Below are positions 12,387 to 47,108 of a DNA stretch of 64,000 bases, piece after piece (within the stretch, counting starts at the first letter, position 1; every line of letters begins with the position of its first letter). The position numbers and the translations under genes were made by a program. Source of the DNA: Candidatus Electrothrix scaldis (GTDB lineage Bacteria; Desulfobacterota; Desulfobulbia; Desulfobulbales; Desulfobulbaceae); assembly GCA_033584155.1 (NCBI GenBank), contig CP138355.1:620001-684000 (forward strand), given 5' to 3'. The notes under the pieces are model-generated. The model did no database searches. It worked only from the letters and a program-made list of their open reading frames with translations, and was not told where the DNA came from.

Positions 12387-14060
12387 CCTAAATCCTGCAA
12401 TTAGTTGAAAGGGTATCGTAAAAATAGTATAATCCTCAATATGTTAAAGGTAAAATTACTACAGAAGAGGGTCACTATTTTTATGAAGTCTAAACAGAAT
12501 AAACGATCTGCCCGAGTCTCGCCCAAAAAAATACAAATTAATAAAGGAGCAAAAGGGGTTACAGCACAGGCAGGCTTGATTCCTGCCGTAAAGTTCCTGC
12601 AAAAACATAATGTTGGCCAGCTTATCCAGGAAACTTTAGAACATCAACGCGGAGCCACCGCCACTTATGATGCAGTTGATATAATATTTCTCCCTTTGAT
12701 AGCTATTATCGGCGGAGCTCGTTCTATCAGCAATATTGCAACAGTCTGGGCAGATAGCGTACTTTGCCGGATAGCAGGATGGCGGTTAATCCCGGACGAA
12801 ACAACCTTTGGCCGCCTTTTTCGAACATTCAGCTATCGTCATATCAATAACCTGGAAGTTCTTAATCATCGGTTGCGTGCTCGCATGTGGCGTAAGGGAT
12901 TGCGATCCGGGAAAAGTAAAGTCGGTGCAGCCCACTGTCTGGTTGTTGATGTGGATTCCACAGAAAAGACGGTATACGGTTCTCAGCAAGGAGCGGCCAA
13001 AGGGTTTAATCCACATAAACGCGGTGCAAAATCGTATCATCCTCTGCTTGCATTTTGCGCTGAAAGCAAAGAGATATTGCAAGGGTGGCTTCGATGCGGC
13101 AATGCCTATACAAGTAATGGTATTGTCGAGTTTACCAAGCAACTTCTGGCACACCTTCCCAATGGAACCCGGATTTTGTTCAGGGGCGACAGCGGTTTTT
13201 TTGTTGGTGCCCTGCTTGATCTTTTGGATCAGTATGGTCATAGTTACCTGATCAAGGTTAAGCTCAAGGGGCTGGTCACCCTTCTGTCCAAACAATCCTG
13301 GGAGCCGGTCCCCGGGCAGGCCGGTTGGGAACAATGTATCTTTTTTCATAAATGTACGACCTGGTCTTCGACCCGACTCTTTGTTGCGGTCCGCAGAGAG
13401 AAACCGGCTGACCCGGCAAAACCAGCGACCCTGTTTGAGATGAAGGAGTTCGATTACTTCTGTTATGTGGTCAGTGAGATTGCTGATCCATGGCAGGTCC
13501 ACAAACGATACGGCCAACGAGCAACTTGTGAAACCTGGATTGAGGAAGCAAAAAACCAGACTGCGTTGGTACATATCAAGACAGAAGATTTCTGGGCAAA
13601 TAGTGTGTTGTTTCAAACTGCTATTCTGGCATACAACACGATACGATGGATGGCTTTATTGAGCGGTAATGCTGTATTACGTCGCTGGGAGCCAGGTACA
13701 ATTCGTACATTTCTCGTTCGGGTGGCTGGGAAGTATACTACTGGTGGACGGCAGCAAAAGCTATTTGTTCCCGAACGAATGCTGTATTCCACTCAGTGGG
13801 ATGACTGGGTGGCGGTGGGGCTGTACTGACCAGCACTACTACCTCTTTTTTTGAAATATTTTTTTCCATCAACAGGATTAGTGCGTCTTGTGGGGCAAAA
13901 TATTCTACTTGATCAGCCTTAAAGAGGCATCTGCTTATCTGGAAACAGCACTTTTCGGTGTTTTTTACTATCAACTGATAACTATTTTCAGAATTTTTGG
14001 TTTTCTACAACACCAAATGGTTAGTCATTTGAGCCAAAAAGATCAATTGCAGGATTTAGG
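12387..14060 (+). mobile_element. IS1380-family insertion sequence with TATCA target duplication
   Basis: A 1674-bp element bounded by 16-bp identical terminal inverted repeats (CCTAAATCCTGCAATT at 12387-12402 and its complement at 14045-14060). It is flanked by the direct repeat TATCA (12382-12386 and 14061-14065). It carries one intact transposase. The intact ends, intact transposase and perfect duplication suggest a recent insertion. Confidence 0.92.
12483..13829 (+). CDS. IS1380-family transposase
   Basis: DDE transposase of about 448 residues from the ATG at 12483; in-frame non-ATG starts upstream to 12405 also exist. Typical IS1380 blocks are present: LVVDVDST with the first Asp, YGSQQGAAKGFNPHKRG, YHPLLAF, FRGDSGFF with the second Asp, and RATCETWIEEAKNQ with the catalytic Glu. 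No frameshift or stop is seen, so the element may be active. It interrupts the STM4504/CBY_0614-family gene between dapA and the membrane protein gene at 14998. Confidence 0.92.
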   Translation: MKSKQNKRSARVSPKKIQINKGAKGVTAQAGLIPAVKFLQKHNVGQLIQETLEHQRGATATYDAVDIIFLPLIAIIGGARSISNIATVWADSVLCRIAGWRLIPDETTFGRLFRTFSYRHINNLEVLNHRLRARMWRKGLRSGKSKVGAAHCLVVDVDSTEKTVYGSQQGAAKGFNPHKRGAKSYHPLLAFCAESKEILQGWLRCGNAYTSNGIVEFTKQLLAHLPNGTRILFRGDSGFFVGALLDLLDQYGHSYLIKVKLKGLVTLLSKQSWEPVPGQAGWEQCIFFHKCTTWSSTRLFVAVRREKPADPAKPATLFEMKEFDYFCYVVSEIADPWQVHKRYGQRATCETWIEEAKNQTALVHIKTEDFWANSVLFQTAILAYNTIRWMALLSGNAVLRRWEPGTIRTFLVRVAGKYTTGGRQQKLFVPERMLYSTQWDDWVAVGLY

Positions 14061-18823: not shown

Positions 18824-19717
18824 TTAGACGAGAATAAGGACAGATTTCAGAGTGTATTCCGGGTCAAATATGGTGATTCGGGTGAATTCCTCATCATTTT
18901 TTTGGATATAAACCCGTTGATACCGGGGCACAGCATGCTCCTCAGTAGTTGTAAAAACATCAACGATACTGGCATGCTCTTTTTTATGCGGACAAAGCTT
19001 GAGATACAGGGCAGATGATTCTGTGGGACAGTAGGAAATTTCAGTTGTCTGCGAGATAGTTCCCTTTTTATAAGGATTTTCAAACCAGTAGCTAACCGAA
19101 CTTTGGCAATGGGACTCAAAATCTATGGTAATTGTGGCTGCGGGCAGGGGCTTCTTTCTCTCCCGCACTCTATGTGTTGTGCAAGATTTTGCTTCTTCTT
19201 TTTCTTCCAAATGAAGAGACGTAATAACTGACGGGGCTTCTCTATCTGGCAGCGAGGTAACACTGGTGAAAAATTTAACCTGAGGCTCGCAGAGGAAATT
19301 TTCATCAACAACAAATTCTCCGGCCTGATCGGTCTGGGTTATCACAGGAGCAATCTGCACATTATCGACGAAAGCAAGAGCTAGCTGATGTCCCTGAAAG
19401 GCCACCTGCACCCTGATCCCAGGATGAGGAGGATCGATTCTGCCGTAGACCAGGAGATGCATCAGTTGAGATTGACTATGTCGTCCGACGCTGACCATCG
19501 TCACGGGCGAGACAATAGTATAATAATCAGCCTTGGCACAGGCCTCCTGCGAACGTAAAGGAACAACCCGCGACAAGGAGGCGCGAAAAAATGTACCTAT
19601 CTTGGCTAAAAAACGTCTCGTTGTATCTAAAAGCATAAAAACGCCGTCATGCATCCTTCCTGATTCCACAACTGTTTTTGACTCATGATTCTGAGTTGTT
19701 TTTATGAAGGTATTCAT
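18824..19717 (-). CDS. Hypothetical protein
   Basis: About 297 residues from ATG 19717, which has GGAG close upstream; an in-frame TTG at 19738 is less likely. The sequence is mixed alpha/beta with no signal peptide or membrane segment. The middle is rich in beta-type residues (LLVYGRIDPPHPGIRVQVAF, LALAFVDNVQIAPVITQTD) and could be a carboxypeptidase-regulatory-like or immunoglobulin-like fold. I do not recognise the family. It precedes the PilZ gene on the same strand with a gap of 160 bases. Confidence 0.55.
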   Translation of the reverse strand: MNTFIKTTQNHESKTVVESGRMHDGVFMLLDTTRRFLAKIGTFFRASLSRVVPLRSQEACAKADYYTIVSPVTMVSVGRHSQSQLMHLLVYGRIDPPHPGIRVQVAFQGHQLALAFVDNVQIAPVITQTDQAGEFVVDENFLCEPQVKFFTSVTSLPDREAPSVITSLHLEEKEEAKSCTTHRVRERKKPLPAATITIDFESHCQSSVSYWFENPYKKGTISQTTEISYCPTESSALYLKLCPHKKEHASIVDVFTTTEEHAVPRYQRVYIQKNDEEFTRITIFDPEYTLKSVLILV

Positions 19718-20111
19718 CGCGCTCCATGCAAAAAACAAATAAACTCAAGCTATCTTGAATATTATATTAAAAAAATCCTATAGACACCTCTATACATTCC
19801 ATGAAAACGCTTCTCATCTGTCTGATTACCGTATCATAATATTTTTTCGCCCATTGGCTCTACATTACCCATAATGGGCTCAATATCTCTTGTATATCTT
19901 AACTCTTTATCAAGCAAAAACAATACCACATTTTGTAGGACTCTACCCAAAGAACAAAATCCAGATAAAAATATTTTTCATTCTCAAAAGATAAAAAAGA
20001 AAAAGAGGCGTTATTTTCTTATCCCCTCCCCCTCTCTTCCCGCGTTTTTTTCAAATACGTATACTCTTTACCCACCCAGGATTCAGCATATTATACTGTG
20101 CAAGAGCTGCT
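19718..20111. other. AT-rich intergenic region
   Basis: Nearly 400 bases between two minus-strand genes. A plus-strand open frame exists (19874-20227) but runs antisense into the KAS III gene and has no ribosome site. I see no clear RNA or repeat. Confidence 0.4.
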
Positions 20112-21251
20112 TTATACCACGGTCAGCAGCATCCAACCCACAGAAAACCTGCCACTCTCAGGGATCATCCCCAGGATACGGTCTCCTTGCCGTAATTTCC
20201 CTGACGAGAAAAGCTCTTCCAACATGATGTAGAATGAGGCAGATCCGGTATTCCCTTTTGTGTGGAGATTGGTAAACCATTTTTCCTTGGGCACAGAAAA
20301 CCCAGCTTCGATAAACTTCTCCATAAGCGGCTCATGGAAAAACTCAGAAGAGTAATGCGGCAGAAACCAGTCAATCTGCTCTGGTTTAAGGTCATGCCGT
20401 TCTCTGGCCAAAGAGAAGCTCTCCTCGACGATGACTCTGATTATCTCGTGGTTCAGCAGACGGGCATCCTGCTTAATAGTAAAAATCCCGTCTTTGCGAC
20501 CTGCTCGCAGATGCTCCCGCCATCCTACAAGGCTGCCACCCGCCTGTTTGAGCGCACCGGCATACATACAGGTCTCCAGCTGGTGCGCATGAGAGGTCAG
20601 CTCAATCCAATCAATCCGGAGGCTCAACTTTCCTTGCGCAGGTTCTGGCTCGATAAGAACAGCTCCGGCCCCGTCAGAGAGCATCCAGCGAAGAAATTCC
20701 GCCTCAAAAGAAAAGGCCGCATGACGCTGTTTGTCTGAATCACTTTTCTTCTTTCGTTGAGCTGTGACCTGAAAAAAATCCTGGTGCATATAGGTGGAGG
20801 CTAACTCCGATCCGGTCGCCACTGCATTCTCGGTTATTCCCGAGGCCACGGACAGGGCTGCGTACTTCATCGCCGTAATACCGCTCAGACAGATTCCACT
20901 GGTGGAGACTACCTCGCAAGGCCCTCCCCCTAAGGCTCCATGTACCATCGAGGCATGACCAGGCATGAGCTGATCCGGTGACGATGTGCCGCAACAGAGG
21001 CATGCCAAGGCTTCAGGCTCAATTCCTAAGCCGCGCACAGACTCTGCTGCTAACTCGGCATTACTATGCGTGGTTTCTCCTGTTGACGGATCCAGCGCAT
21101 AATATCTGGTTTGAATGCCGTTGCCAGCAAGAATCATCTGGCGAGTCCTGGCAGATACCCTCTCTACTTTTCCCAGATACGCATCCAGGGCATCATTCTC
21201 CACCGGCTCACCAGGCAGAAAGGCCGAAATCGCCGTTATAAACGCATTCAT
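20112..21251 (-). CDS. 3-oxoacyl-ACP synthase III-like ketosynthase
   Basis: A 379-residue KAS III/FabH-like enzyme with the complete catalytic triad: Cys121 in STSGICLSG, His299 in FLPHYSSEF and Asn334 in KGNTGSASF. It is longer than FabH (about 320), with an insert around residues 160-190. It would prime or condense acyl chains on the ACP encoded two genes upstream. As last gene of a five-gene minus-strand operon (from 24963) with a radical SAM enzyme and an ABC exporter, it more likely serves a specialised lipid or polyketide-like product than housekeeping fatty acid synthesis. The ribosome site is GAAGA about eight bases upstream. Confidence 0.85.
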   Translation of the reverse strand: MNAFITAISAFLPGEPVENDALDAYLGKVERVSARTRQMILAGNGIQTRYYALDPSTGETTHSNAELAAESVRGLGIEPEALACLCCGTSSPDQLMPGHASMVHGALGGGPCEVVSTSGICLSGITAMKYAALSVASGITENAVATGSELASTYMHQDFFQVTAQRKKKSDSDKQRHAAFSFEAEFLRWMLSDGAGAVLIEPEPAQGKLSLRIDWIELTSHAHQLETCMYAGALKQAGGSLVGWREHLRAGRKDGIFTIKQDARLLNHEIIRVIVEESFSLARERHDLKPEQIDWFLPHYSSEFFHEPLMEKFIEAGFSVPKEKWFTNLHTKGNTGSASFYIMLEELFSSGKLRQGDRILGMIPESGRFSVGWMLLTVV

Positions 21252-21254
21252 CCT

Positions 21255-22547
21255 TTATATCTTCGCATGTTCATGACTTTTGCGGATAAGCTCCGCATAA
21301 AGCGTATAAAATTCCTTTTCCTCAAGCCGGGTTTCGGTGACGGCATTGGTTAAGGTGTAATAATCAAGATCATGATTAACAATTCGGTCCTGCTGCTGCC
21401 GATACAGCTCAGTACCTGGCAGCGGCGTCATCACTGTAATCATGGGTAAATCAATCTGGGCCTTGTCAAGATAGGCATCAAGACGGAGAAAGTCTTGTTC
21501 CTTGTACTGGGGATCAATAATGAAATCGCCCACTACGGTGATACCCAGTTCCTTGAGCACAGCCACCGCCTCGGTATTGATATCCGCCCGATTGGCCTTG
21601 TTCATGGCTGTCAGGCGCTGATCGTCTATCTCCTCAAAACCGATGACCACTGCCCGTAGCCCTGCCTCTTTCCAGCTCCTCAGCAGCTCTGGATACTGGA
21701 CAACGGTATCAGAACGGATATCAGCAAGGTATTGTTTGCGCAGCCCTGAATTCTTCAAGGCCTCAGCCAATGCCTTGGCCCGCTCAATATCACCAAAGGT
21801 ATTAGCATCCACCAGGCGGATCACCGGGATATCGGGCAGGAGTTGGATCTCTCGCAACACCGCATCAATGGACTTGGTCAGGTACCTGCCATTGGTCTGC
21901 CCCTTAATAGAGCAAAAAGAACAACGATGGGGACAGCCATAGGCCGAGGCAACAAAGCCCATCGTCACCTTGAGTTTTTCCAAAATATAAGAGGAGCGGT
22001 ATTGCTGCACCTTGTCATAAGCTGGCGGCAGATCCTCCATAATATCAGCAACTGTGCAACGGTGGTCCGGCACCTGAATTTCCCCACCCGGATTGGTGGC
22101 AAGGACACCGGGGATGGCAACCTCTTCCTCACGGATCAGACAGGCAACAAGCTCGGCAAAGGTTCTCTTGCCCAAGCCGACGATAATATAATCAACCGCT
22201 GCCTGATTAAAAAAGGCAGGATCATTACTGGCGTGAATCCCGCCCACAACCACCAGCGGCTGCCCATGCTCCTTAACCTGCCCGGCAAGCCGAAGCATGG
22301 TGTTTGCCTCACAGGTCAGGCCGGTGATCCCGACAAGCTCAGGCCTGAATTCTGCCAGCATAGCCTCCAGGCCATCCGGTTCCGCCTTCAGATCCAGTAT
22401 CCGAACATCGTGCTCCAGCAAATTCCCGGCCAGCTCTTCTAGGGCAAGGGGCTCACCCCGAAAAATCTGCTTTATAGAGGTAATCCCGTAGCGCTCCTCT
22501 GGAATGCTGCGACCGCAATTAGGTGGGTTGATCAGCAGGATCTTCAT
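21255..22547 (-). CDS. B12-binding domain radical SAM protein
   Basis: A 430-residue class B-type radical SAM protein. Residues 1-130 resemble a cobalamin-binding domain (GEPLALEELAGNL, LVGITGLTCEAN, VVVGGIHAS), although the DxHxxG signature is absent, as in many such proteins. The 4Fe-4S motif is C205-x3-C209-x2-C212 in YGCPHRCSFC. The C-terminus is helical. Likely chemistry is methylation or C-C bond formation at an unactivated carbon of an ACP-bound or lipid substrate. It ends three bases before the KAS III start and begins six bases after the ACP stop, so tight co-transcription is expected. Confidence 0.88.
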   Translation of the reverse strand: MKILLINPPNCGRSIPEERYGITSIKQIFRGEPLALEELAGNLLEHDVRILDLKAEPDGLEAMLAEFRPELVGITGLTCEANTMLRLAGQVKEHGQPLVVVGGIHASNDPAFFNQAAVDYIIVGLGKRTFAELVACLIREEEVAIPGVLATNPGGEIQVPDHRCTVADIMEDLPPAYDKVQQYRSSYILEKLKVTMGFVASAYGCPHRCSFCSIKGQTNGRYLTKSIDAVLREIQLLPDIPVIRLVDANTFGDIERAKALAEALKNSGLRKQYLADIRSDTVVQYPELLRSWKEAGLRAVVIGFEEIDDQRLTAMNKANRADINTEAVAVLKELGITVVGDFIIDPQYKEQDFLRLDAYLDKAQIDLPMITVMTPLPGTELYRQQQDRIVNHDLDYYTLTNAVTETRLEEKEFYTLYAELIRKSHEHAKI

Positions 22548-22553
22548 GGATTC

Positions 22554-22823
22554 TCAGGCTCCATCGTTTTGTCGGATATACTCAGCCAGCGTGGCTAAGG
22601 ATTGCAGGACGGTCCTGCTGGTATTTTCCGAATCCATGCGTACGCCGTATTCCCGCTGCACTGTCACCGCGATCTCAAGGGCATCAATGGAATCAATCCC
22701 CAAAGGAGACTCCGGCCCGATCAGGGGATCGGTATTGGCAACCGTGTTCGGGTCAATATCATCCAGTTTACAGGTTGTACAGATCAGATCCAGCAGTTCT
22801 CTTTCAAAAGCATCAGTTATCAT
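22554..22823 (-). CDS. Acyl carrier protein
   Basis: An 89-residue acyl carrier protein. The phosphopantetheine attachment site is Ser45 in LGIDSIDALE, with the usual acidic helix after it (EIAVTVQREYGV). It differs from housekeeping AcpP in sequence and is placed between an ABC exporter permease and a radical SAM gene, so it is probably dedicated to this operon. It needs activation by a phosphopantetheinyl transferase, which is not visible in the window. Confidence 0.9.
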   Translation of the reverse strand: MITDAFERELLDLICTTCKLDDIDPNTVANTDPLIGPESPLGIDSIDALEIAVTVQREYGVRMDSENTSRTVLQSLATLAEYIRQNDGA

Positions 22824-22870
22824 TCTTCACATTATAGCGTTAATACCGTTGAGACGAAAGGAATAGCCTT

Positions 22871-24193
22871 TCATATTTTGCTGTTCCACCCCTGAAATTT
22901 CCAGGCCAGCAGGATAGTCACAAGAAAAAAGCCGCCCAGGCGCAACAGGTCGCCTTGCACCAGAGCCAGCGAATCTCCCCGCAATAAGATATCATGAAAG
23001 GCGGTCAGACCCCAGTTTAAAGGAGAAATAATACTGAGCCGCTGCATGATCTGGGGCATGGCATACACTGGCACCATCACCCCGCCAAGGGCCGCAGCCG
23101 CAACGATCGTGGTCGATCCCAGGGTAGAAGCCTGCTCATAGGTCCGGCAAACCGTCCCCAAAAAGATACCATAGCCGCAGGCAGCCAGGCCCGTCAACAA
23201 GACAACGACAAGCAGGAACAAAATATCCTGTCCCAGAGAAAAGGCCGGAAGATCCAGGACAGGGAAAAAATGCGCCCCAACCAGGGTAATCAGAGAAAAC
23301 TGGCAGCAGCAAACCGCCAGATAGGCCAGGACCTTGGCCGTGAGGAGCAGAACCGGAGAAACCGGCAGGGTACTGAGGCGAAGCTGAATGCCACTCCTTC
23401 GCTCCTGCAAAAGGCCACCGGCAATGGGGATAGCAGTAAAAAAGATACCAAAGAGGGCCCAGGCCGGGACATTTTGCTGGACCGGATTATATTCCGCGAC
23501 CTCCTCTCCCTGCTCTGAGGTTTGGCCAGATACTTGTGCAGAAGCGGGATCGCTGACTTCGAACAAGGATTGATCAAAGACGTTTGCGATACGCTTACCG
23601 GAAAATCCAGAGGGCACCGGCCAAGGGAGCATAATATTGCTCTGCTTTTCCAACTCCTTTTGCAGCTGCTCAGCCTTGGCCTGGAGAGCCAGCTTTTCCA
23701 GGATCATCCGCAGCTGGGCGCTTAGGCCGGTGCGAAAACCTGGCATTACCGCAGGATCGAAAAAGAGATAAATCGGAATCAGGCTGGATACGTCCCCAGA
23801 GGTCTTCTCATCTTTCTCGGTAAAGATGGCTTCCGCCTCCGCACGCAGCCGCTCCGAGGAACCAGCAGGTATCACCAGGCCAACCTGGAAATCACCGTTC
23901 TGCACCGCAGCTTGGATAGCCTCCAGGCTTACTTGCCCTGCCGCATGACGGATAATCTCAACATTGCCCTCTTCCAGGGAATCAGACAAGGCCTTGCCAA
24001 GGTTGCCCTTATCCAGGTCTGCCATGAGCAGCCGGGTCTTGCTCTGCCCGGTCAATTCCATGACGTTCTTTTGCACCAGGGTGATCGCAACAACCAGGAA
24101 AACCGGCATGAGAAAGAGGACAGCCAGACCAGCCCGATCCCGCCTGAGGAGCAGGAGTTCCTTAACCACAGCGGCAAAGAGCTTCCCCATCAT
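22871..24193 (-). CDS. ABC-2 type transporter permease
   Basis: A 440-residue integral membrane protein of the ABC-2 family. It has one N-terminal membrane helix (about 20-40, GLAVLFLMPVFLVVAITLV), a long extracytoplasmic region (about 45-240) and five to six C-terminal helices (245-435), including GGVMVPVYAMPQIMQ. This layout is typical of lipid, polysaccharide or natural-product exporters. Its start codon overlaps the stop of the ATPase gene (ATGA), which shows translational coupling. It is predicted to export or flip the product made by the downstream ACP, radical SAM and KAS III proteins. Confidence 0.9.
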   Translation of the reverse strand: MMGKLFAAVVKELLLLRRDRAGLAVLFLMPVFLVVAITLVQKNVMELTGQSKTRLLMADLDKGNLGKALSDSLEEGNVEIIRHAAGQVSLEAIQAAVQNGDFQVGLVIPAGSSERLRAEAEAIFTEKDEKTSGDVSSLIPIYLFFDPAVMPGFRTGLSAQLRMILEKLALQAKAEQLQKELEKQSNIMLPWPVPSGFSGKRIANVFDQSLFEVSDPASAQVSGQTSEQGEEVAEYNPVQQNVPAWALFGIFFTAIPIAGGLLQERRSGIQLRLSTLPVSPVLLLTAKVLAYLAVCCCQFSLITLVGAHFFPVLDLPAFSLGQDILFLLVVVLLTGLAACGYGIFLGTVCRTYEQASTLGSTTIVAAAALGGVMVPVYAMPQIMQRLSIISPLNWGLTAFHDILLRGDSLALVQGDLLRLGGFFLVTILLAWKFQGWNSKI

Positions 24194-24963
24194 GCGTCCC
24201 GAAGCTGCCTGCCTGTTAAATAGAGAAAGAGTTCTTCCAGGGTATTAAGGCCGCTCTCTGCAATCAGGCTGGACGGCACGCCCTGCTTAATAATGCTTCC
24301 CTGATCGATAATACCGATGCGGGTACAGAGTTTTTGCGCCTCGTCCATAGAATGACTGGTGTACAGGATCGTTGTGCCGCCTCGGTTGGCCTCTTGCAAT
24401 TGTTCGTGAATCATATTGCGTGATTGGGCGTCAACGCCAACGGTAGGTTCATCAAGAAAAAGGATCTCCGGTTCATGGAGCAGGGCCGCAGCAATATTCA
24501 GGCGCCGCTTCATGCCGCCGGAATAGGTCCCCACCAATCGGGAGGCCCGATCAAGCAGGCCAGCTACCTCCAGGCATGTCTTCACCTGCTTGCCCAGCCT
24601 CTCTTTGCCCAGTCCGTGCAGTTTGCCGAAAAAAACAAGGTGCTCCTGCGCGGTCAGGTTATCATACAGGGCGATTTCCTGCGGGACAAGACCGAAGATC
24701 TTTTTGATCGCCTTGGCCTGCCTGCTGAACTGTTTCCCGGCAATCTGGAGGGTACCGCTATCCGGCATCAAGAGACCACTGAAGATGGACAAAGCAGTTG
24801 TCTTCCCGGCCCCGTTGGGACCGAGTAGCCCGAAGAACTCTCCCTTTTCCACCTCCAGGTTGAGCTCCTGCAAGGCCGGGTATTCAGCGCCCTTGTACTG
24901 CTTGCACAGGGAGCGGGCCAGGAGGGCTGGAGTATCTTGTTGGTCTTCTGTTTTTGTCTTCAT
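24190..24963 (-). CDS. ABC transporter ATP-binding protein
   Basis: A 257-residue ATPase with Walker A (GPNGAGKTT), Q-loop ([12 protein letters not shown]), signature (YSGGMKRRL), Walker B ([12 protein letters not shown]) and switch His ([10 protein letters not shown]). It powers the permease encoded directly downstream. The ATG at 24963 is preferred over an in-frame TTG at 24978, though the ribosome site is poor. As first gene it marks the 5' end of the five-gene operon. Confidence 0.93.
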
Positions 24964-25325
24964 AGCTACACAACGCAACTGCCGAGATAGAGCTTCTGCT
25001 CTGAATGAAAAAGTTACCGTTTCCTAGCTGATATTCCGGTGGCTTTCAAGGAAAAACCGCGCGACCTCTTGTTTCCCGACGTTTTTGGGGAAGGCAGGGA
25101 AGGATAAGGTTCCTCGATATTAGAGTGATCAGTCCTGACCGGTAACCGCATAGCTGAAAGGTTTGAAAAAGACAGTAATACTAATGTGGATATCTTTTTA
25201 TGCCACAATGATTTTTAGTCATTATGTGTGATAAAAAACCTAGACAACAGCACGTTAACATAATATTTTTGTTTACTTTTCATCTTCAACAAAGTACTTA
25301 CATTTGAGCGCAAGATCTTTATAAC
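24964..25325. other. Divergent intergenic region
   Basis: About 360 bases between the ABC operon (minus) and the toxin-antitoxin operon (plus). It must hold promoters for both. Apart from the inverted repeat next to the toxin gene, no element is convincing. Confidence 0.4.
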
Positions 25326-25368: not shown

Positions 25369-25704
25369 ATGCATATATATTTTAAGAAAAGGAAAATTGA
25401 AAAAATATGTAACGAAAGCAAGATAGCCATAAAAGAATTAGGAGAAAAACGCGGCAAGAAATTAATGCAACGTATGATGGAGCTTGCTGCAGCTGCGTTT
25501 TTGTCCGATATTTCGATATACCCACCTGCCCGATGTCATGAGTTAAGCGGAGATCGTAAAGGTCAATTGTCTGTTGATCTTGGGCATCCATATCGGCTTA
25601 TTTTTATCCCTGCTGACGATCCAGTACCGTTGAAGAAAGACGGAGGACTGGATAGAACGGCTATCAGCAGCATTGAAATTATAGAGATAGCTGACACTCA
25701 TTAA
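25369..25704 (+). CDS. HigB/RelE-like toxin
   Basis: A 111-residue basic protein resembling HigB of the RelE/ParE fold, a ribosome-dependent mRNA endonuclease. Supporting features are the N-terminal KKRKIEKICNE helix, the middle PPARCHELSGDRKGQLSVDL strand pair and HPYRLIFIPA, which matches the killer-protein pattern PYRLIF. It is followed after 13 bases by a gene with an antitoxin-type helix-turn-helix, the toxin-first order of higBA systems. Confidence 0.8.
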   Translation: MHIYFKKRKIEKICNESKIAIKELGEKRGKKLMQRMMELAAAAFLSDISIYPPARCHELSGDRKGQLSVDLGHPYRLIFIPADDPVPLKKDGGLDRTAISSIEIIEIADTH

Positions 25705-25717
25705 AGGGGAGAATAAT

Positions 25718-26809
25718 ATGATTAAGGCAACGAAAAAATATACGTTTAACCCAGACTATGCTGTGCCGCCCGGAGAAACTCTGAAAGAGACCATCGAGTT
25801 TCTTGGTATGACACAAAAAGAGCTCTCAGCACGTACAGGCCTTTCAGTTCAGTCTCTGAATAGAATTCTAAAAGGAGAACAGTCTATTACCTATGAAACA
25901 GCGAATATTCTTGAGTTGGTCCTCAATGTTCCAGCTTCAATGTGGAATAATTTAGAAGCGCAATATAGGGAACAGCTTGCCAAAATTCATGAGCGTAAAA
26001 GACTAGAAGAAAAACTTGAATGGTTAAAAACGATCCCTGTTGCTGAGTTAGTCAAGAGACAAGTTCTACCACATTGTAAAAACCAAGTAGATCAGTTACG
26101 AGCCGTCCTCTCTTTCTTTGGCGTAGGCAGTGTGAACTCTTGGCATCAGATATGGGATAACCCTGCAGTAGCGGCGAGGCGGTCTGAATGCTTTAAGAGC
26201 TGTCCAGGAACTGCTTCTGCATGGATAAGACAAGGTGAAATCAAGGCTAATTCAATCAATTGTGCTGATTTTTCTAAAGAGAAGTTTAGTAAAGCAGTAT
26301 CGAAAATTAGAGCGTTTACAGTCCTTACCCCTGAAAAATTCATAAATCAAATGGTTTCTCTATGTGCGGAAGCTGGTGTGGCTTTAGTTTTCGTTCCCGA
26401 AATGAAAAAAGCACCTTGGTATGGCGCTACAAAGTGGCTCTCATCAAAAAAAGCCATGATTATCCTTAACCTGCGAGGGAAAAAAGAAGACTTATTTTGG
26501 TTTGCATTTTTCCATGAAGCAGGCCATGTGCTCCATGATTCTAAAAAAGACCTTCTTATTAACACTGGAAAGAAAAAACAAGATGATGAACGAGAGATAC
26601 GTGCTGATAATTATGCTGCAGAACTTTTGATTCCAGAAAAATATAATGAGCGCATAAAAAGGCTACGTTCCAAAATCGAGCTTATCAAGCTAGCAAACGA
26701 ATTAAAAATTTCCCCCGCTATAGTTGTAGGCCGGTATCATCATCTCACTAAAAAATTTAATTTCTTTAATGATCTAAGAAGGACATTTGAATGGTCTCTA
26801 AACGACTAA
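25718..26809 (+). CDS. HigA-like antitoxin fused to an M78 (ImmA/IrrE) metallopeptidase
   Basis: A 363-residue protein. Residues 12-75 form an XRE/HigA helix-turn-helix (GETLKETIEFLGMTQKELSARTGLS, read as two parts). Residues 200-330 are an ImmA/IrrE peptidase with the zinc motif H266-EAGH270 and the downstream EIRADNYAAELLIP. The antitoxin half should neutralise and autoregulate the upstream toxin; the peptidase half may cleave a regulator or the antitoxin itself under stress. This fusion is common in HigA-like antitoxins of environmental bacteria, though the peptidase substrate is unknown. Confidence 0.88.
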   Translation: MIKATKKYTFNPDYAVPPGETLKETIEFLGMTQKELSARTGLSVQSLNRILKGEQSITYETANILELVLNVPASMWNNLEAQYREQLAKIHERKRLEEKLEWLKTIPVAELVKRQVLPHCKNQVDQLRAVLSFFGVGSVNSWHQIWDNPAVAARRSECFKSCPGTASAWIRQGEIKANSINCADFSKEKFSKAVSKIRAFTVLTPEKFINQMVSLCAEAGVALVFVPEMKKAPWYGATKWLSSKKAMIILNLRGKKEDLFWFAFFHEAGHVLHDSKKDLLINTGKKKQDDEREIRADNYAAELLIPEKYNERIKRLRSKIELIKLANELKISPAIVVGRYHHLTKKFNFFNDLRRTFEWSLND

Positions 26810-26960: not shown

Positions 26961-27052
26961 AGAAGAATAGCCGCAAGGCGGTAAACTTCTTTTAAAATAT
27001 GCCCGAAACATCAGAGATTCATACTCACGATAATTTTACCAGTGAGGCGCCG

Positions 27053-27913
27053 ATGAAATATGTAGTCGTTGTCGTTGATGACAGTAAATTCGTCCACAAA
27101 CTGATCGAAAAACTTTTTGATCCCAACTTGTTTGACGCCCACTTTTTTACTTCTGCGGAAGAAACAAAAAAAGCCTTGGATACCTTTGCTACTCAAGGCC
27201 GGAATGTTGACCTAGTCTTACTCGATATCTACTTACAAGAAGGCACCAAGGACGAAAGCCTTGCCTTGCTGGAGTTTTTAACAAAAACACGAAAGCGGAC
27301 CCAGGTTATCGTCATGTCTGGTCGCTTAGCATCAGAGGAATTCGCGGAATTTTATTATAAGGGTGCGGACAGCTACCTGATTAAACCTTTTCCCGAGGAC
27401 AAGTTCACAGCTTCCATCAAAAAGCATATAAATATCGCTCGTCATATCCCCAAGTTTAATAATGCCCCGTTGGCAAAGATTAAGATCGATAAAAGGGATA
27501 TATTTATAGGTCATCTCACTACAGACACAAAACTGGCCTCATTTTTCAGAGATGAATTGATGAAAAACAATATCGGTTCATGGTGTGAAAGTGCAGAGTT
27601 ACTGGAAGACCCGATCTGGAAGCCTGTCCTGACTGATGCTATCAATTCCTGCAAAATATTCCTTTTACTCCTCTCCCATGACACCCTGCGGTCCCCGTAT
27701 ATGAAGCAGGAAATTATCCAGGCCTTTAACAGAAAAAAACGCGACGGAAACAAATTCCTCCTCATTCCTGTCCTGTATAATATCAAAGCAAATGAGGTAC
27801 CTCGCCAAATCACCTCCATGCATTGTGTGGATCTTACAGTGGCCAATAAGAGAACCGAGCACATTCGTTCTCTCATGGCTTCCCTCAGGAAGATTCTGAA
27901 ACCGGCGAATTAG
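27053..27913 (+). CDS. Response regulator receiver domain fused to a TIR domain
   Basis: A 286-residue two-domain protein. Residues 1-125 are a receiver domain with the acidic pair DD (residues 9-10), the phosphoacceptor Asp58 in LVLLDIYL, and the conserved Lys in LIKPFP. Residues 145-285 are a TIR domain (RDIFIGHLTTD, then LLEDPIWKPVLTDAI, FLLLLSHDTLRSPYMKQEI, FLLIPVLY). The start at 27053 has GAGG at good spacing; ATG 26999 would add 18 residues without a ribosome site. A phosphorylation-controlled TIR effector or adaptor is the natural reading. Whether the TIR part cleaves NAD is not known; no partner kinase is adjacent. Confidence 0.85.
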   Translation: MKYVVVVVDDSKFVHKLIEKLFDPNLFDAHFFTSAEETKKALDTFATQGRNVDLVLLDIYLQEGTKDESLALLEFLTKTRKRTQVIVMSGRLASEEFAEFYYKGADSYLIKPFPEDKFTASIKKHINIARHIPKFNNAPLAKIKIDKRDIFIGHLTTDTKLASFFRDELMKNNIGSWCESAELLEDPIWKPVLTDAINSCKIFLLLLSHDTLRSPYMKQEIIQAFNRKKRDGNKFLLIPVLYNIKANEVPRQITSMHCVDLTVANKRTEHIRSLMASLRKILKPAN

Positions 27914-29617: not shown

Positions 29618-30055
29618 ATGAACGTAAGTATTTGGGATCCTTTCCGTGAGATGGAAGCATTGTTTAATAATTACACAATGCCGACAAGAAAAAAATCAAC
29701 AGCAGATGAAAGCGGAACTGTTGAAACAAGAGAATGGGCACCTGTTGTTGATATCCTTGAAACAGAGAATGACTTTGTTTTAAAAGTCGAGCTCCCTGGT
29801 GTGGAAAAAGATGATGTAGAGGTCTCTATCGACAATCGCATTCTGACCATCAAGGGAGAAAAGAAGAGCGACAGTGCAGACAAGAAGGTCCACAGAACCG
29901 AATGCAGATACGGCACCTTTATCAGAAACTTCACCCTGCCTCAGGATGTGGATGTGGATAAGGTAGAGGCAGCCTGCAAAAACGGTGTGCTCAACCTGAC
30001 GTTGACCAAGATGGAGCAAGCTAAACCCAAGCAGATTGAGGTACAAGTCCACTAA
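29618..30055 (+). CDS. Hsp20/alpha-crystallin small heat shock protein (1)
   Basis: A 145-residue ATP-independent holdase that binds unfolding proteins and forms oligomers. The alpha-crystallin domain covers residues 40-135, with VELPGVEKDDVEVSI, LTIKGEKK and the closing motif ACKNGVLNLTL. The start follows AAGGAGGGTGTT, a strong ribosome site. It is the first of three Hsp20 genes in a row, probably one operon ending at the terminator at 31783. Confidence 0.94.
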   Translation: MNVSIWDPFREMEALFNNYTMPTRKKSTADESGTVETREWAPVVDILETENDFVLKVELPGVEKDDVEVSIDNRILTIKGEKKSDSADKKVHRTECRYGTFIRNFTLPQDVDVDKVEAACKNGVLNLTLTKMEQAKPKQIEVQVH

Positions 30056-30120
30056 TCTGCGCGCAGACGAACTGAGGGTGAATGCTTTTTTCGTTAACCA
30101 AGGACATGACGAGGTGTGTT

Positions 30121-30678
30121 ATGGATATGGATATCAAAAAATGGGTTCCCTGGAATTGGTTCAAAAAAGAAGAAGAGAACACCGGTGCTACGGTGCCGGT
30201 GCAGCATAAGAACGCACAGGAGGGAATCGGGGCTTTTCCCCAACTGTTCAGCCAGTTGCATAATGAGATGGATCGCCGCTTTGAACAGATATTCCGAGAA
30301 TTCGGGAGTGGGAGGCCTCTCCTGTCAAACATGGCAAACGGTATGCTCAAGCCGACCTTGGACCTGAGCGCCAGCGAAAACGAGTATACCATTGCCGTGG
30401 AAGTACCCGGCGTGAATGAAAGTGACCTCAAGATTGAGATTGATAAAAACACCATGATCATTCGCGGCGAGAAGAAGCAGGAAAAGGAAGAGAAGAAGAA
30501 AAACTATTATCGCCAGGAACGTTTTTACGGTTCGTTCCAGCGCATACTTTCTCTGCCAGAGGACGCAGATCAGGATGACATCCAGGCGACCTTTCAACAC
30601 GGGGTGCTCAATATCACCCTGCCAAGAAAGGCCTTGCCGAAACCAGATGTCCGGCAGATAGCTATCAAAACCGTTTAA
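30121..30678 (+). CDS. Hsp20/alpha-crystallin small heat shock protein (2)
   Basis: About 185 residues from ATG 30121 (GAGG site); an in-frame ATG at 30082 also has GAGG nearby and would add 13 residues without homology. The N-terminal segment WVPWNWFKKEEE is shared with the third Hsp20. The alpha-crystallin domain shows VEVPGVNESDLKIEI, IIRGEKKQ and FQHGVLNITLP. Cytoplasmic holdase by analogy. Its close similarity to the third gene indicates a local duplication. Confidence 0.92.
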   Translation: MDMDIKKWVPWNWFKKEEENTGATVPVQHKNAQEGIGAFPQLFSQLHNEMDRRFEQIFREFGSGRPLLSNMANGMLKPTLDLSASENEYTIAVEVPGVNESDLKIEIDKNTMIIRGEKKQEKEEKKKNYYRQERFYGSFQRILSLPEDADQDDIQATFQHGVLNITLPRKALPKPDVRQIAIKTV

Positions 30679-30684
30679 GATATA

Positions 30685-30784
30685 GCTCCCGTCCCACCCC
30701 TTGCGGGTGGGACAACAAAACGGGAAAGAAGCCATGAACATTGGTCGGACGATTCCAAAGAATCATCCGTTCCTTTCATATAAA
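30685..30784 (+). repeat. Two-hairpin intergenic element, copy 3
   Basis: First hairpin GTCCCACCCC-TTGC-GGGTGGGAC, then AACAAAAC, GCCATGAAC, a second hairpin GGACGATTCC-AAA-GAATCATCC and TTTCATATAAA. Same plan as the tandem pair between dapF and dapA. It lies between Hsp20 genes 2 and 3 and could act as an attenuator or mRNA stabiliser. Confidence 0.65.
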
Positions 30785-30876
30785 CCGTGCTCGCGCACAG
30801 GAGGTATGAGTAAGGGGTTCTGCGGAATCCCTTACATCTTTTATTTTCTCATTTTTCTTATTCTGGAGGTTCAGCA

Positions 30877-31596
30877 ATGAATGGCCAAATGCAGACAAAG
30901 GTATTGGTACTTACAGGAATTATGGCACTTAACCTCTTCTTACCAATTACGCCGCTGAGTTATGCCACCGGTTCGGCAAATTCTCCAGACGTGATCAGCA
31001 AAGAACTGAAAAGCAACAAGTCGGACCAGAAGACAGAGGAGAAGAATTGGTCTCCCTGGAACTGGTTCAGGAAAGAAGAGGAGAAAAGCGGCAGCAAGGT
31101 GCCTATTCAACGGAAAGACGACAAAGAGGATCGGGATGATCTTGCGGGTCCATTGCAGGATTTTCATCGCGATATTAACCGGCTCTTTGACCAGACCTTC
31201 CGCGATTTCGGATTTTCCGCGTTTGATTTCGATCAGCCCTTTATGCATACGTCCAACGGCGTTCTCAGGCCTGTGACAGATCTCGCGGCAAATGATAAGG
31301 AATACACTATCACCGTGGAAGTACCCGGCGCGGACAAAGACGATATCAAGATCGAGGTCGCGAATAATGTTATGACCATTCGCGGCGAGAAAAAGCAAAA
31401 AAAGGAGGAGGAGCAGAAGGACTTCTATCGACAGGAGCGCTTTTATGGATCGTTCCAGCGCGTGCTCTCACTCCCGGAAGATGCTGATCAAAATGATATC
31501 AAAGCGAATTTTCATCAAGGCGTGTTAACAGTGACCATGCCGAGAAAGGATATGCCGAAACCCAATGTGAAAGAGATTGAGATACACTCCAGCTAA
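30877..31596 (+). CDS. Exported Hsp20-family protein (3)
   Basis: A 239-residue Hsp20 with an N-terminal export signal: a short basic start, the hydrophobic stretch VLVLTGIMALNLFLPI and a possible cleavage site after SYA. A linker with WSPWNWFRKEEE, as in Hsp20 (2), and an alpha-crystallin domain (about 135-232, VEVPGADKDDIKIEV, MTIRGEKKQ, FHQGVLTVTMP) follow. A periplasmic or membrane-anchored holdase is inferred. Most Hsp20 proteins are cytoplasmic, so the signal is unusual. GGAGG precedes the ATG at good spacing. Confidence 0.88.
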   Translation: MNGQMQTKVLVLTGIMALNLFLPITPLSYATGSANSPDVISKELKSNKSDQKTEEKNWSPWNWFRKEEEKSGSKVPIQRKDDKEDRDDLAGPLQDFHRDINRLFDQTFRDFGFSAFDFDQPFMHTSNGVLRPVTDLAANDKEYTITVEVPGADKDDIKIEVANNVMTIRGEKKQKKEEEQKDFYRQERFYGSFQRVLSLPEDADQNDIKANFHQGVLTVTMPRKDMPKPNVKEIEIHSS

Positions 31597-43866: not shown

Positions 43867-44673
43867 TTACAACCCTTTTTCCAACCGTCGTACTGTAAAG
43901 ATACCCTCATCCATTTTGTCCTTAAACACAACATTATCCAGCTTCAAAACAGTCTTATGCTCTGTTACCTTGCCTTTTTTCTTGGTCACGTGGGTTTCAG
44001 TAGCAATCCAGATGCCGTCAATTTGCTCCAGTTTCTTTACATCAAAATACTTCAAGTATCCTCCGTCACGTACCCAGTGGACTGCCTTGACAACGTAATA
44101 ATTGTCCTGCCGAACAAAGACGATGGATTTTTCATACCCGGTCTCGTCAATCACTTCCGGGCGTCGCGGCATGGCCTGAATCAACCAAACCTTATGGCCG
44201 TTATCTTTATCCTCCTTGAGCAAGGTGAAATCGTAATCTTCCAGGTCCCGAGAGGTCATATCAGCGTAATTCAAGTCTGACCCCATAAAGCTGGAGCTCT
44301 TATCATCCGTGGCAATACGCTTTGTCTTGCGCAGAGCTGGCAGGTAGAGCCATTGCTCGTCATCCTTGGACTCGTCATCATAATCATAGGTGAGAAAACC
44401 TGTGTCTTTGACATCTGGTGGATGGAGGAAAAACATAATCCGGTGAGTATCTTCGCCAAAGTCCTTGCTGAAAGAGTGAATTTTTCTCACCCGCTCACTG
44501 CCGTTTTTATCAATAAGGATCATGGTCATATCATTTTCCTGATTATCACCATCCTCCCGGTCTTCAACCTTCTGCATGATTTCCCTGGCCTTGGGGTCAT
44601 CTTTGGCAAGGGCGGGGTTGACTGCCGTGAAGAAGGAACAGGACAGCAGGATGGAAAGAACAAGGTGTTTCAT
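43867..44673 (-). CDS. LolA-like outer-membrane lipoprotein-sorting protein
   Basis: A 268-residue exported protein with a signal peptide (cleavage after PALA). The body (ARKIMQK-like start, EDTHRIMFFLHPPDVKDTGF, QWLYLPALRKTKRI, FMGSDLNYADM) matches the LolA-like family (PF17131) that accompanies MMPL/RND transporters. It may hand hydrophobic cargo between the pump and the outer membrane. Its start overlaps the stop of the RND gene (ATGA), showing translational coupling. It is the last gene of the MarR-controlled operon. Confidence 0.88.
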   Translation of the reverse strand: MKHLVLSILLSCSFFTAVNPALAKDDPKAREIMQKVEDREDGDNQENDMTMILIDKNGSERVRKIHSFSKDFGEDTHRIMFFLHPPDVKDTGFLTYDYDDESKDDEQWLYLPALRKTKRIATDDKSSSFMGSDLNYADMTSRDLEDYDFTLLKEDKDNGHKVWLIQAMPRRPEVIDETGYEKSIVFVRQDNYYVVKAVHWVRDGGYLKYFDVKKLEQIDGIWIATETHVTKKKGKVTEHKTVLKLDNVVFKDKMDEGIFTVRRLEKGL

Positions 44674-47108
44674 GAAAGTTCTCCTGAAAAAGAAAGGTTA
44701 GAGGATTGCTGCGATGGATGCACAAGCATCATAAGGGCCGGGGCAATAAGATAATCTGCCAACAGGGCTATAATAAGGGTAAATCCTGTCAACCAGCCAA
44801 AGTTGAACAGATTATTCATGGATGAACACATAAGAACAAAAAAGCCGATCGAAAGGACACAGGTGGTGATGAGCATGGCCCGCCCTGTACTGCACAGGGT
44901 GTCCATAACAGCCTGTTTAGCATCACCACATTGTTTATAATATCGCTGGAAGTTATGCATGAAATGGATGGTATCGTCCACGGCCAGACCAATGGATATA
45001 CTCCCCACCAACATGGTGAACAGATCCATAGTGACATGAAACCAGCCCATGATACCCAAGGTCAGACAGATGGGAAACAGGTTGGGAATCATGCTGAGAA
45101 GTCCGATCTGGAGCTTACCAATCAAGCTAATCATCAGCACGGTGATTACAACAAAAGCAATCATGTAACTTTCGGCCATTGTGTCAACAACTTGAGCCAT
45201 AGTTTGAGATATAATAGAACTCAAACCGGTGATGGTTATCTGGAGTTCTGGAAATGTTTGCTGAAAATGCTTGTTAACAGCCTGCAAAAAATCAGTATAC
45301 GCCACTGCATCGCGGTAGGGTACTTTGACCGTGAACCGTGCTTTGGAAAATTGACTATCTGTCACATCTTCCAAGTCGTCTGAGCCACTGTTTTCAAAAA
45401 GAAGAAACTCCTGAGGAATAAGCGCGGGATCATCCGGCACCTTATAGAACTCCGGTCTGTTCTCGTTCAGGGCCTGATGAATTTCCTTGAGGATAGTGGT
45501 GATGCTCCAGGCCTTGCCTGCAAATATCTCTCCCTTCTTCAACTGTTCCATATATTGCACAGAGCTGTCGATCCGCCGGAGGAGATCCGGATCATAGAGC
45601 CCATTGACCTTGCCCGTATCCAGGATAATCTCCAAAGAAATCGAGCCCCGCATCTCCTCATCAATGGTTTCCGAAGCAATACGAATCGGCGAGTCTTTTG
45701 GGTACCAGCCAACGATATAATGAGAGAATGTAATCCTGGTCATGCCGATGATGGAGACAAGAAAGATCAACACCGTAGCTGCCAGAATACTCTTAGGATA
45801 CTGTGTCGCAAAATGGCCGAAGGCCGATAAAACCTTGTCAAGTCGCGTTCCCTTGCGCTCTTTCTTCTTTTCCAGACCTTGTTTCAAGGAAATCAGGGCA
45901 AGTAGACTTGGTAAAAGGACGATGGTGTACAATAGTGCCAGCATGACTCCGCTGGCAGCATAGATACCTAAATCCGCAATAGGGGCGATATCAGCAGAGG
46001 CAAAGGAAAGGAGGCCACCCGCTGTCGTCACGGAGGTCATGAGCACAGCAAGCCCGGAATGGCCGATGGCATAGACCACAGCTTCTTCCTTATCCCAGCC
46101 ATTATGGCGGAGCCGGTGAAAAAAAATCGCAAGTATATGGACCGAGTCTCCGACGCCGACAGCCAGCAAAAATGATGGCATAATCTGGGTGGGCATTTTT
46201 AACGGTGTGCCACAAGCCGCCATCAGGCCCATAGTGGAAAGGAGTGAGATAAGGACAATAAGCAGGGGCAGGAAGACAGCTGAAGCACGGCGAAACATCA
46301 AAAAAAGGAAAGTCGCGATAACCATGCCAACCAAGACCATGAATTTCAGCATACTTTCTGTCATGGCTTTTTTAAGAAAGTCGGTTACCACAGGTCCGCC
46401 AGCAACATAGATCTCAAAATCCGGGGAACGATAAGTATCAGCGATGCGAGTCACAGCCTCAACCGCCTCCCCTTTTTCCTCATCAGTAAGGAAGAGTCGC
46501 GCCTCCTGCGGGTTGCCATCAGTTTCTTCTGTAAAACCAGCCAGCACATCCTCAGGTTCTTCTCCCTGGGAAGTATAGGCCTGCATTTGCAGGACGATAC
46601 CGGTAAAATCCCCTTTTTCAGAGATGATTAAATTTTTATAGAGAGGATTGGCCAAGGCCCGCTCTTTGATGGTGGCCAGTTCTTCCGGGCTTTCCGGCCA
46701 GTGTTTCAACAGGTCCTCAACAATCAGCCGGTCTCCCTCTCCCCTGGTGCTTCGGGCATTAATCAGACTGCTGATATCATCCACGTAGGGAACAGTATCC
46801 CGTAACTCCACATGCAGTTTTTGTAACTTTTGCAAGAATTCAGGAGCAAAGACATCCTTACCTTTGATGGCAATAATGACCATCTCGGTATTACCGAACT
46901 GCGCACGGAAATCATTATAGGCCAGCAAGGCAGGGTCTTGTTCGTGGAGAAAGCCCTCTGTGGAGGTGTCCAAGGTAAGCTTGGGGAGTTGAGAGAGCAA
47001 GCCTCCGGTAAAAAGAGCTAAAATCAGCAGAGTGATGAGGTTATGTCGATAAAACAGACGTGCTGCAGCAGCAAATTGTTCTTCAATACGGTCTTTGACA
47101 TGATGCAT
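44670..47108 (-). CDS. RND/MMPL family transporter (second tandem copy)
   Basis: An 812-residue inner-membrane protein with two repeats of one plus five membrane helices and two large periplasmic loops. Signatures are LTLDTSTEGFLHEQDPALL near the start, LLAVGVGDSVHILAIFFHRL and the paired motif GSISIGLAVDDTIHFMHNF. MMPL-type RND proteins move lipids, hopanoids or hydrophobic compounds outward. It is about 80% identical over the first 150 residues to the gene at 47169-49598, separated by 60 bases: a tandem duplication. Substrate unknown. Confidence 0.92.
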   Translation of the reverse strand: MHHVKDRIEEQFAAAARLFYRHNLITLLILALFTGGLLSQLPKLTLDTSTEGFLHEQDPALLAYNDFRAQFGNTEMVIIAIKGKDVFAPEFLQKLQKLHVELRDTVPYVDDISSLINARSTRGEGDRLIVEDLLKHWPESPEELATIKERALANPLYKNLIISEKGDFTGIVLQMQAYTSQGEEPEDVLAGFTEETDGNPQEARLFLTDEEKGEAVEAVTRIADTYRSPDFEIYVAGGPVVTDFLKKAMTESMLKFMVLVGMVIATFLFLMFRRASAVFLPLLIVLISLLSTMGLMAACGTPLKMPTQIMPSFLLAVGVGDSVHILAIFFHRLRHNGWDKEEAVVYAIGHSGLAVLMTSVTTAGGLLSFASADIAPIADLGIYAASGVMLALLYTIVLLPSLLALISLKQGLEKKKERKGTRLDKVLSAFGHFATQYPKSILAATVLIFLVSIIGMTRITFSHYIVGWYPKDSPIRIASETIDEEMRGSISLEIILDTGKVNGLYDPDLLRRIDSSVQYMEQLKKGEIFAGKAWSITTILKEIHQALNENRPEFYKVPDDPALIPQEFLLFENSGSDDLEDVTDSQFSKARFTVKVPYRDAVAYTDFLQAVNKHFQQTFPELQITITGLSSIISQTMAQVVDTMAESYMIAFVVITVLMISLIGKLQIGLLSMIPNLFPICLTLGIMGWFHVTMDLFTMLVGSISIGLAVDDTIHFMHNFQRYYKQCGDAKQAVMDTLCSTGRAMLITTCVLSIGFFVLMCSSMNNLFNFGWLTGFTLIIALLADYLIAPALMMLVHPSQQSSNLSFSGELS

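Follow-up and report, generated by a model that had tools for sequence, protein, structure and literature searches.

In the described dialkylresorcinol (DAR) systems the ketosynthase/cyclase DarB is known, from papers on its homologues, to condense two fatty-acid-derived thioesters, and the excerpts used here give its products as 4-carboxy-2,5-dialkylcyclohexane-1,3-diones (PMC5515871) and these cyclohexanediones as intermediates en route to dialkylresorcinols (PMC4414361). A darA mutant of Pseudomonas chlororaphis made no resorcinol (PMC6403133, in excerpt), and therefore something else must act if a resorcinol is made without DarA. The dar set of Azoarcus, as laid out in the excerpted part of PMC3949708, comprises darK, darJ (ketosynthase), darC (acyl carrier protein, ACP), darI (permease), darF (ATPase), darE (BtrH-like), darD, darB (cyclase) and darA (aromatase); the genes named darH and darG there carry PilT and prevent-host-death domains. 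Below we follow NCBIfam usage and not the Azoarcus gene names: DarH denotes the BtrH-related protein that is called darE in Azoarcus, and DarG denotes a small protein family. Here we analyze a five-gene operon in a 64,000-nucleotide stretch of Candidatus Electrothrix scaldis (contig CP138355.1, positions 620,001 to 684,000; "the window"), whose genome (G000) is a single contig of 5,089,909 bases. Our comparisons strongly support the identity of this operon as a core part of the known DAR pathway type. What is new here is a B12-binding-domain radical S-adenosylmethionine (SAM) enzyme, hereafter rSAM, in DarA's place, while the remaining operon genes are of the known dar type. We consider it probable that the operon is the core of an anaerobic-type DAR/polyene pathway in which rSAM carries out DarA's oxidation of the cyclohexanedione to the resorcinol.

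The operon spans 20112-24978 on the minus strand of the window and consists of five tightly packed open reading frames (ORFs), none disrupted, with these features:
24190-24963, minus strand: ATP-binding cassette (ABC) transporter ATPase, DarF-like (257 aa from ATG; PF00005 8e-33)
22871-24193, minus strand: ABC-2 permease, DarI-like (440 aa; PF12698 1.2e-32; 4-bp overlap with the ATPase gene)
22554-22823, minus strand: ACP, DarC-like (89 aa; PF00550 4.3e-7; 47-bp gap to the permease gene)
22689-22691, minus strand: codon of ACP Ser45 (GIDSID), the predicted phosphopantetheine attachment site, read from the sequence
21255-22547, minus strand: B12-binding-domain radical SAM enzyme, rSAM (430 aa; 6-bp gap to the ACP gene)
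21912-21935, minus strand: radical SAM C-x3-C-x2-C motif (Cys205, Cys209, Cys212), placed by its cysteines
20112-21251, minus strand: StlD/DarB-family ketosynthase/cyclase (379 aa; 3-bp gap to the rSAM gene)
20889-20891, minus strand: codon of the ketosynthase active-site Cys121, from the sequence and the StlD alignment

The outer boundary reflects an alternative TTG start of the ATPase, upstream of its ATG, which would begin at 24978. The original prediction, made from the DNA alone, had described five close-packed minus-strand genes, and all lie where it placed them, with gaps of 47, 6 and 3 bp and one 4-bp overlap; it had also called the key motifs intact, and ketosynthase Cys121/His299/Asn334, ACP Ser45 and rSAM Cys205/209/212 are indeed all present. 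Its β-ketoacyl-ACP synthase III (KAS III)-like synthase keeps the intact triad, and the identity of the enzyme can be narrowed to the StlD/DarB family, since it scores 526.5 bits against NF005293 (cut-off 450 exceeded). It aligns over residues 2-379 with the solved StlD structure (PDB 5gk0, which we take to be the Photorhabdus enzyme) with an E value of 3.2e-114, and Cys121, His299 and Asn334 line up with the StlD triad; the narrower, exception-level DarB model NF053539 gives 438.8 bits and its cut-off of 550 is missed. An ordinary FabH of primary fatty acid synthesis was rejected (fabH model 70 of 292 bits, versus 526 of 450 for StlD/DarB). The description of the operon as uncharacterized did not stand, as all but one of the five genes have counterparts in the published Azoarcus set (darF, darI, darC and darB; PMC3949708, in excerpt), and ATPase, permease and ACP accompany darB as in characterized dar clusters. 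The ATPase reaches 252 bits against the DrrA-like model TIGR01188, under its cut-off of 312, and the ACP 63.6 bits against NF006617, slightly below its cut-off of 70. The prediction had further proposed ACP-bound acyl chemistry together with radical chemistry and export, and the parts of what is a coherent operon do point this way.

Identical five-gene content and order is found in all three other DarB-bearing genomes of the genus (G005, G007 and G003), in which the operon proteins are 76-98% identical to those of G000 (85-98% for the ATPase across these three genomes), and the ratio of non-synonymous to synonymous substitution rates (dN/dS) is 0.04-0.22 in 15/15 gene comparisons (five genes, three same-genus genomes). 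The operon is under purifying selection and its arrangement is not chance. Scanning this region for promoters and terminators returned 12 and 13 consensus matches versus 5.0 and 6.1 expected; many are intragenic, and the outcome was not decisive. Downstream of darB, at 18824-19738 on the minus strand, lies a gene for a 304-aa protein that is present there in all four DarB-bearing genomes of the genus and had no match in a Pfam or NCBIfam search.

Distribution makes a strong case that rSAM replaces DarA. In DarA-type loci darA stands directly upstream of darB, and in window-type loci rSAM holds the same position. Among 100 distinct DarB rows (identical rows and rows of fewer than 330 residues excluded), the gene adjacent upstream of darB was rSAM in 59, DarA in 33, both in 0 and neither in 8, with 3 of these 8 (L053, L066 and L072) beginning close to a contig end; three rows were resolved individually (L062 as rSAM, L093 and L094 as DarA). 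We then counted whole genomes in a phylum sample (395 genomes of the window's own phylum, presumably Desulfobacterota) and a relatives sample (96 genomes), nine DarB genomes being in both. The cut-offs were set at score gaps, at 600 bits for rSAM (lowest counted 624.6, next 323.8) and 250 bits for DarA (lowest counted 250.3, next hit 98.1), and scoring in the phylum sample was limited to the top 4 or 5 candidates of each genome in the DarB, rSAM and DarA searches. DarB was found in 33 genomes of the phylum sample, counting G384, a partial match below the family cut-off, and these divide into 19 with rSAM, 13 with DarA and 1 with neither (next DarA hit 95 bits); the 36 DarB genomes of the relatives sample divide into 27 and 9 (next DarA hit 98 bits). 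The union is 60 DarB genomes, 39 with rSAM, 20 with DarA, 0 with both and 1 with neither, the last being G140, whose DarB frame holds an internal TAG. At the bit cut-offs used, neither rSAM nor a true DarA was found without DarB in either sample. Co-occurrence of the rSAM and ketosynthase genes, which the original prediction had named as its own test, is thus strong in these samples, and judged by its sequences rSAM is a distinct, highly conserved family, found only alongside DarB in both.

Within the window's genus (eight genomes) DarB and rSAM occur together in G000, G003, G005 and G007 and are both missing from G001, G002, G004 and G006, which are drafts of 140 to 470 contigs. No DarA was found in G000, where the best match is a short flavodoxin-like paralogue at 77 bits versus at least 250 for true DarA. 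The rSAM-type loci belong nearly all to presumably anaerobic deltaproteobacterial lineages, with a purple sulfur bacterium and a single Neptunomonas metagenome-assembled genome (MAG) in addition; in two Pseudomonas loci (L085 and L090) DarA precedes darB. A Syntrophus MAG (L075:8686-14610) has two DarB copies, and rSAM precedes the first copy only.

We also placed the two types on a DarB tree, a quick one of 100 rows (92 labelled) without bootstrap. Across the labelled rows the tree shows a single switch between rSAM and DarA, at a split with an SH-like approximate likelihood ratio test (SH-aLRT) value of 98, so that on this tree there is essentially one old exchange. Because both types are mixed within genera (DarA in G025 and G050 and rSAM in G033, G039 and G056 of genus g9; DarA in G079 and rSAM in G088 of genus g33), the pattern suggests that whole gene sets may have been transferred between lineages. 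Distances of DarB and rSAM correlate (r 0.895, 58 pairs, 0/999 permutations as high), as is expected of linked genes.

The accompanying genes are largely common to both types, which suggests that rSAM-type and DarA-type loci may share the same kind of product. DarH is present in 39/39 rSAM genomes, in G140 and in 17/20 DarA genomes; the four DarB-less draft genomes of the window's genus showed none. In neighborhoods with 7.5 kb on each side of darB (19 rSAM, 15 DarA and 5 with neither), DarH and DarG lie near darB in 15/19 rSAM and 15/15 DarA loci, and relatives of the ATPase and permease in 14/19 and 10/15, respectively; the 5 loci with neither have ATPase and permease in 2/5 and DarH in 2/5.

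Further genes of this pathway type lie elsewhere in the genome. Locus L034, from a groundwater MAG of deltaproteobacterial origin, holds 21 ORFs in a single cluster, and 20 of them are matched at four G000 loci, one of the 20 being antisense to a PagL-like gene. Locus A is the window operon, and the others are as follows:
G000:C1 about 47.7-50.7 kb: locus B, with DarH, DarG, a PagL-like protein and a polysaccharide deacetylase
G000:C1:47700-48677: DarH (BtrH-related), NF053550 469.7 bits, exceeding the cut-off of 300
G000:C1:48801-49160: DarG-family protein, NF053536 98.8 bits, exceeding the cut-off of 70
G000:C1 about 133.5-137.4 kb: locus C, with a glycosyltransferase-like protein and an MMPL exporter
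G000:C1 about 686.4-697.9 kb: locus D (in L136 = G000:C1:682000-701500), starting 2.4 kb beyond the window end (64000)

The DarG-family protein scores 94.5 bits against the narrower flexirubin_DarG model, missing its cut-off of 170. Locus D encodes a dehydratase-like protein, a thioesterase, three ketosynthases, two ACPs, an acyltransferase and four radical SAM-type proteins, namely three of which one scores 27.5 bits (Pfam cut-off 29.5), plus a second B12-type radical SAM protein. Proteins of loci C and D are 49-85% identical to those of the single L034 cluster, and the locus C exporter is 58% identical over 1017 aa to an L034 protein that carries a methyltransferase domain. Loci C and D together hold a polyene half of flexirubin/aryl polyene type (ketosynthases, ACP, dehydratase-like protein, thioesterase, acyltransferase and exporter). 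The operon's small size had been taken to speak against any known polyketide or aryl polyene cluster; this was not supported, given these further pathway genes at three other loci of the same genome; in G003, G005 and G007, likewise, DarH is at least 500 kb from DarB or on a different contig. The second B12-type radical SAM protein of locus D has BchE as its best family (170 of 481 bits) and lies near a B12-dependent ribonucleotide reductase gene. At two other loci (L039:8564-15181 and L043:6750-18142) the rSAM-DarB pair stands beside phytoene-desaturase-like, BchE-like B12 radical SAM, SPASM radical SAM, ketosynthase and ACP genes, and L051 has a similar neighborhood without the desaturase-like gene.

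The rSAM protein itself combines a B12-binding domain (PF02310 3.3e-16, 59.7 bits, cut-off 32.1) with a radical SAM domain (PF04055 1.7e-15, 58 bits, cut-off 29.5), and its C205-x3-C209-x2-C212 motif does not vary across an alignment of 22 sequences that includes the window's. Four candidate families were tried and rejected: HpnR (TIGR04367; 168.5 bits, far under the cut-off of 650), the anaerobic cyclase BchE (TIGR02026; 104.3 of 481 bits), AprD4 (40.1 bits, cut-off 500) and the ladderane type (TIGR04072; 40.1 bits, cut-off 360). A structure model of rSAM (predicted local distance difference test score, pLDDT, 84.6) gave full-length VIA-align matches to AprD4 (Z 32.9, 399 aligned, 3.2 A), MgmA (29.2), TsrM (27.3), OxsB (26.0) and CysS (26.0); VIA-align re-aligned only structures ranked by Foldseek, and families outside that ranking may match as well. 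The column of the invariant Cys79 aligns with Trp76 of TokK and with Thr71 of TsrM; the TokK loop at Trp76 presumably faces the cobalamin, and we draw no conclusion on Cys79 from this. For DarA the model (pLDDT 89.9) has a flavodoxin fold over residues 1-207 (Z about 12 versus flavin mononucleotide (FMN) flavoproteins), followed C-terminally by helices with a hydrophobic stretch in 14/14 sequences checked. The folds of DarA and rSAM differ, and an exchange of the two would therefore be a non-homologous replacement. There is precedent in the HemN/HemF and BchE/AcsF pairs, in which radical SAM enzymes stand in for unrelated oxidizing enzymes, and to which we liken rSAM and DarA.

From these data we infer the reaction of rSAM and the final product, whereas the DarB step would follow by analogy with its homologues. 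The ACP would carry the precursor, and DarB would condense two fatty-acid-derived thioesters to a 4-carboxy-2,5-dialkylcyclohexane-1,3-dione. rSAM would cleave SAM at its [4Fe-4S] cluster and abstract a hydrogen from the ring position beta to the carboxylate; CO2 and one electron would then be lost, the latter to cobalamin (its predicted role) or another acceptor, leaving a ring double bond that would tautomerize to the resorcinol. The resorcinol would then probably be coupled to an acyl or polyene acid by DarH together with the thioesterase and polyene-type ketosynthases encoded at the other loci, and the MMPL exporter and the two ABC proteins would move the product to the outer envelope. On balance we lean, by a little over even, towards rSAM being a cobalamin-type radical SAM aromatase that converts the carboxy-cyclohexanedione to the resorcinol (probably with CO2 loss) without oxygen or DarA, and that marks an anaerobic flexirubin/arcuflavin branch in cable bacteria and many deltaproteobacterial lineages.

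Several observations weigh against an aromatase. The closest VIA-align match of rSAM, AprD4, is not known to use cobalamin. With about one exchange on the DarB tree, the 60 genomes do not amount to as many independent cases. The ATPase or permease lies away from darB in 5/19 rSAM-type and 5/15 DarA-type loci, and rSAM and DarA are both missing from the vicinity of some darB genes (Providencia, two Mycobacterium, Capnocytophaga and the second Syntrophus copy). A strict version of the argument, in which rSAM is present because there is no oxygen, is weakened: DarA is kept in 20/60 same-phylum DarB genomes, and lack of oxygen alone therefore cannot explain the swap. DarA is modelled as a flavodoxin fold with helices behind it that include a hydrophobic segment, and may therefore use an electron acceptor other than oxygen.

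To these are added the points that speak for the main rival, a cobalamin-dependent C-methyltransferase that would methylate the cyclohexanedione rather than aromatize it and give a methylated product, hence the absence of DarA. HpnR, a hopanoid C-3 methylase, is the best-scoring named family of rSAM; the first Foldseek match is TsrM, also a methylase; and four structural neighbors (MgmA, TsrM, CysS and TokK) are methylases. Mutual exclusion with DarA would be expected here too if methylation prevents aromatization. However, the HpnR score is far under its cut-off, the top VIA-align match AprD4 is a diol dehydratase, and DarH and DarG accompany both types, which suggests that the downstream substrate is unchanged. 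We regard a methyltransferase as unlikely, at roughly one chance in a handful. Less likely still, and in our view improbable, is that rSAM both aromatizes and methylates, or methylates a resorcinol formed otherwise, for instance by the short flavodoxin-like DarA paralogue (77 bits, profile residues 5-214) of G000 and many relatives; yet this paralogue occurs whether or not DarB is present, and searches of several rSAM genomes (e.g. G008, G036 and G058) did not find it, and so it does not track the pathway. Action of rSAM on the acyl chain before DarB (e.g. desaturation or branching), with aromatization spontaneous or by an unknown enzyme, gains plausibility from the four further radical SAM-type proteins beside ketosynthases in locus D, but it does not explain why rSAM, to the exclusion of DarA, occupies DarA's position, and is very improbable. 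A wholly uncharacterized lipid pathway unrelated to known clusters, as originally predicted, is hardly credible: our literature search found no work linking flexirubin and radical SAM, yet the StlD/DarB, DarH and DarG cut-offs are exceeded and the gene set corresponds to the Azoarcus dar set.

Elsewhere in the window we observed a toxin candidate resembling HigB (below the Pfam cut-off) and, after it, a fusion of a HigA-like protein with an M78 peptidase domain (25369-26809, plus strand), the fusion matching PADLOC PD-Lambda-2_B at 102.7 bits, and a response-regulator receiver fused to a TIR domain (26999-27913, plus strand; PF00072 and PF13676), an unusual pairing. Three further arrangements were noted by eye: a transposase-like ORF (12405-13829, plus strand) flanked by dapA-like and dapB-like genes, judged from translations; three successive small heat-shock (Hsp20-like) genes (29618-31596, plus strand), the last with an N-terminal signal-like extension; and a tandem pair of closely alike RND/MMPL-like transporter genes of about 810 aa (44670-49598, minus strand), with weak hits.

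A literature search that covered few subscription journals returned no report of DarA replacement by rSAM. Dialkylresorcinol with radical SAM led only to bartolosides and cylindrocyclophanes, cable bacteria with resorcinol only to coastal-sediment nutrient work, and StlC with StlD and stilbene aromatization to no match; the cable-bacterium papers PMC10926707 and PMC13047784 hold no mention of resorcinol, polyene or secondary metabolism. The present comparison gives an unnamed, highly conserved radical SAM family a testable function, which, if true, would add aromatization to cobalamin-type radical SAM chemistry. For the resorcinol-polyene pigments of Bacteroidetes and of Proteobacteria such as Azoarcus it suggests a branch with different ring chemistry, and four of the eight searched genomes of this cable-bacterium genus could make such lipids. 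The same gene pair is present in the DSMZ strains Desulfobulbus rhabdoformis DSM 8777 and Desulfofustis glycolicus DSM 9705, which are available for chemistry.

Among the known systems, the solved ketosynthase StlD (PDB 5gk0) is of the same family as the window DarB, and HpnR, BchE and AprD4 have, as rSAM does, a B12-binding-like domain and a radical SAM fold, although rSAM scores far below their cut-offs. The type II fatty acid synthesis (FASII) clusters of Desulfotalea psychrophila and Kuenenia, candidates for polyunsaturated hydrocarbons and ladderanes, resemble locus D in the excerpted part of PMC2649909 in having FabF-like ketosynthases, ACPs and several radical SAM proteins, and the L039 and L043 neighborhoods are reminiscent of them, some relatives adding a phytoene-desaturase-like gene; in contrast to the ladderane type, the window rSAM reaches 40.1 of the 360 bits of TIGR04072. 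The dar cluster of P. chlororaphis (2-hexyl-5-propylresorcinol; PMC6403133, in excerpt) likewise has a ketosynthase of the DarB family and darC, but consists of darA, darB, darC and two regulators, with DarA present. The flexirubin clusters of Chitinophaga pinensis and Flavobacterium johnsoniae similarly join DarB to a polyene half pathway, and the narrower NCBIfam DarG model bears the flexirubin name; they differ in that darA is paired with darB (Cpin_6851/6850), and the excerpted part of PMC3992019 mentions no radical SAM protein. Closest is the dar/arc system of Azoarcus sp. BH72 (arcuflavin, a xanthomonadin-DAR hybrid; PMC3949708, in excerpt), which has darF, darI, darC and darB in common with the window operon, BtrH-like darE and darD in common with the wider G000 set, and an arc deacetylase, methyltransferase, exporter, dehydratase and ketosynthase with counterparts by annotation at the other loci. 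G000 differs from it in having a B12-type radical SAM protein in place of DarA, the identified pathway genes spread over four loci, and extra radical SAM proteins in locus D.

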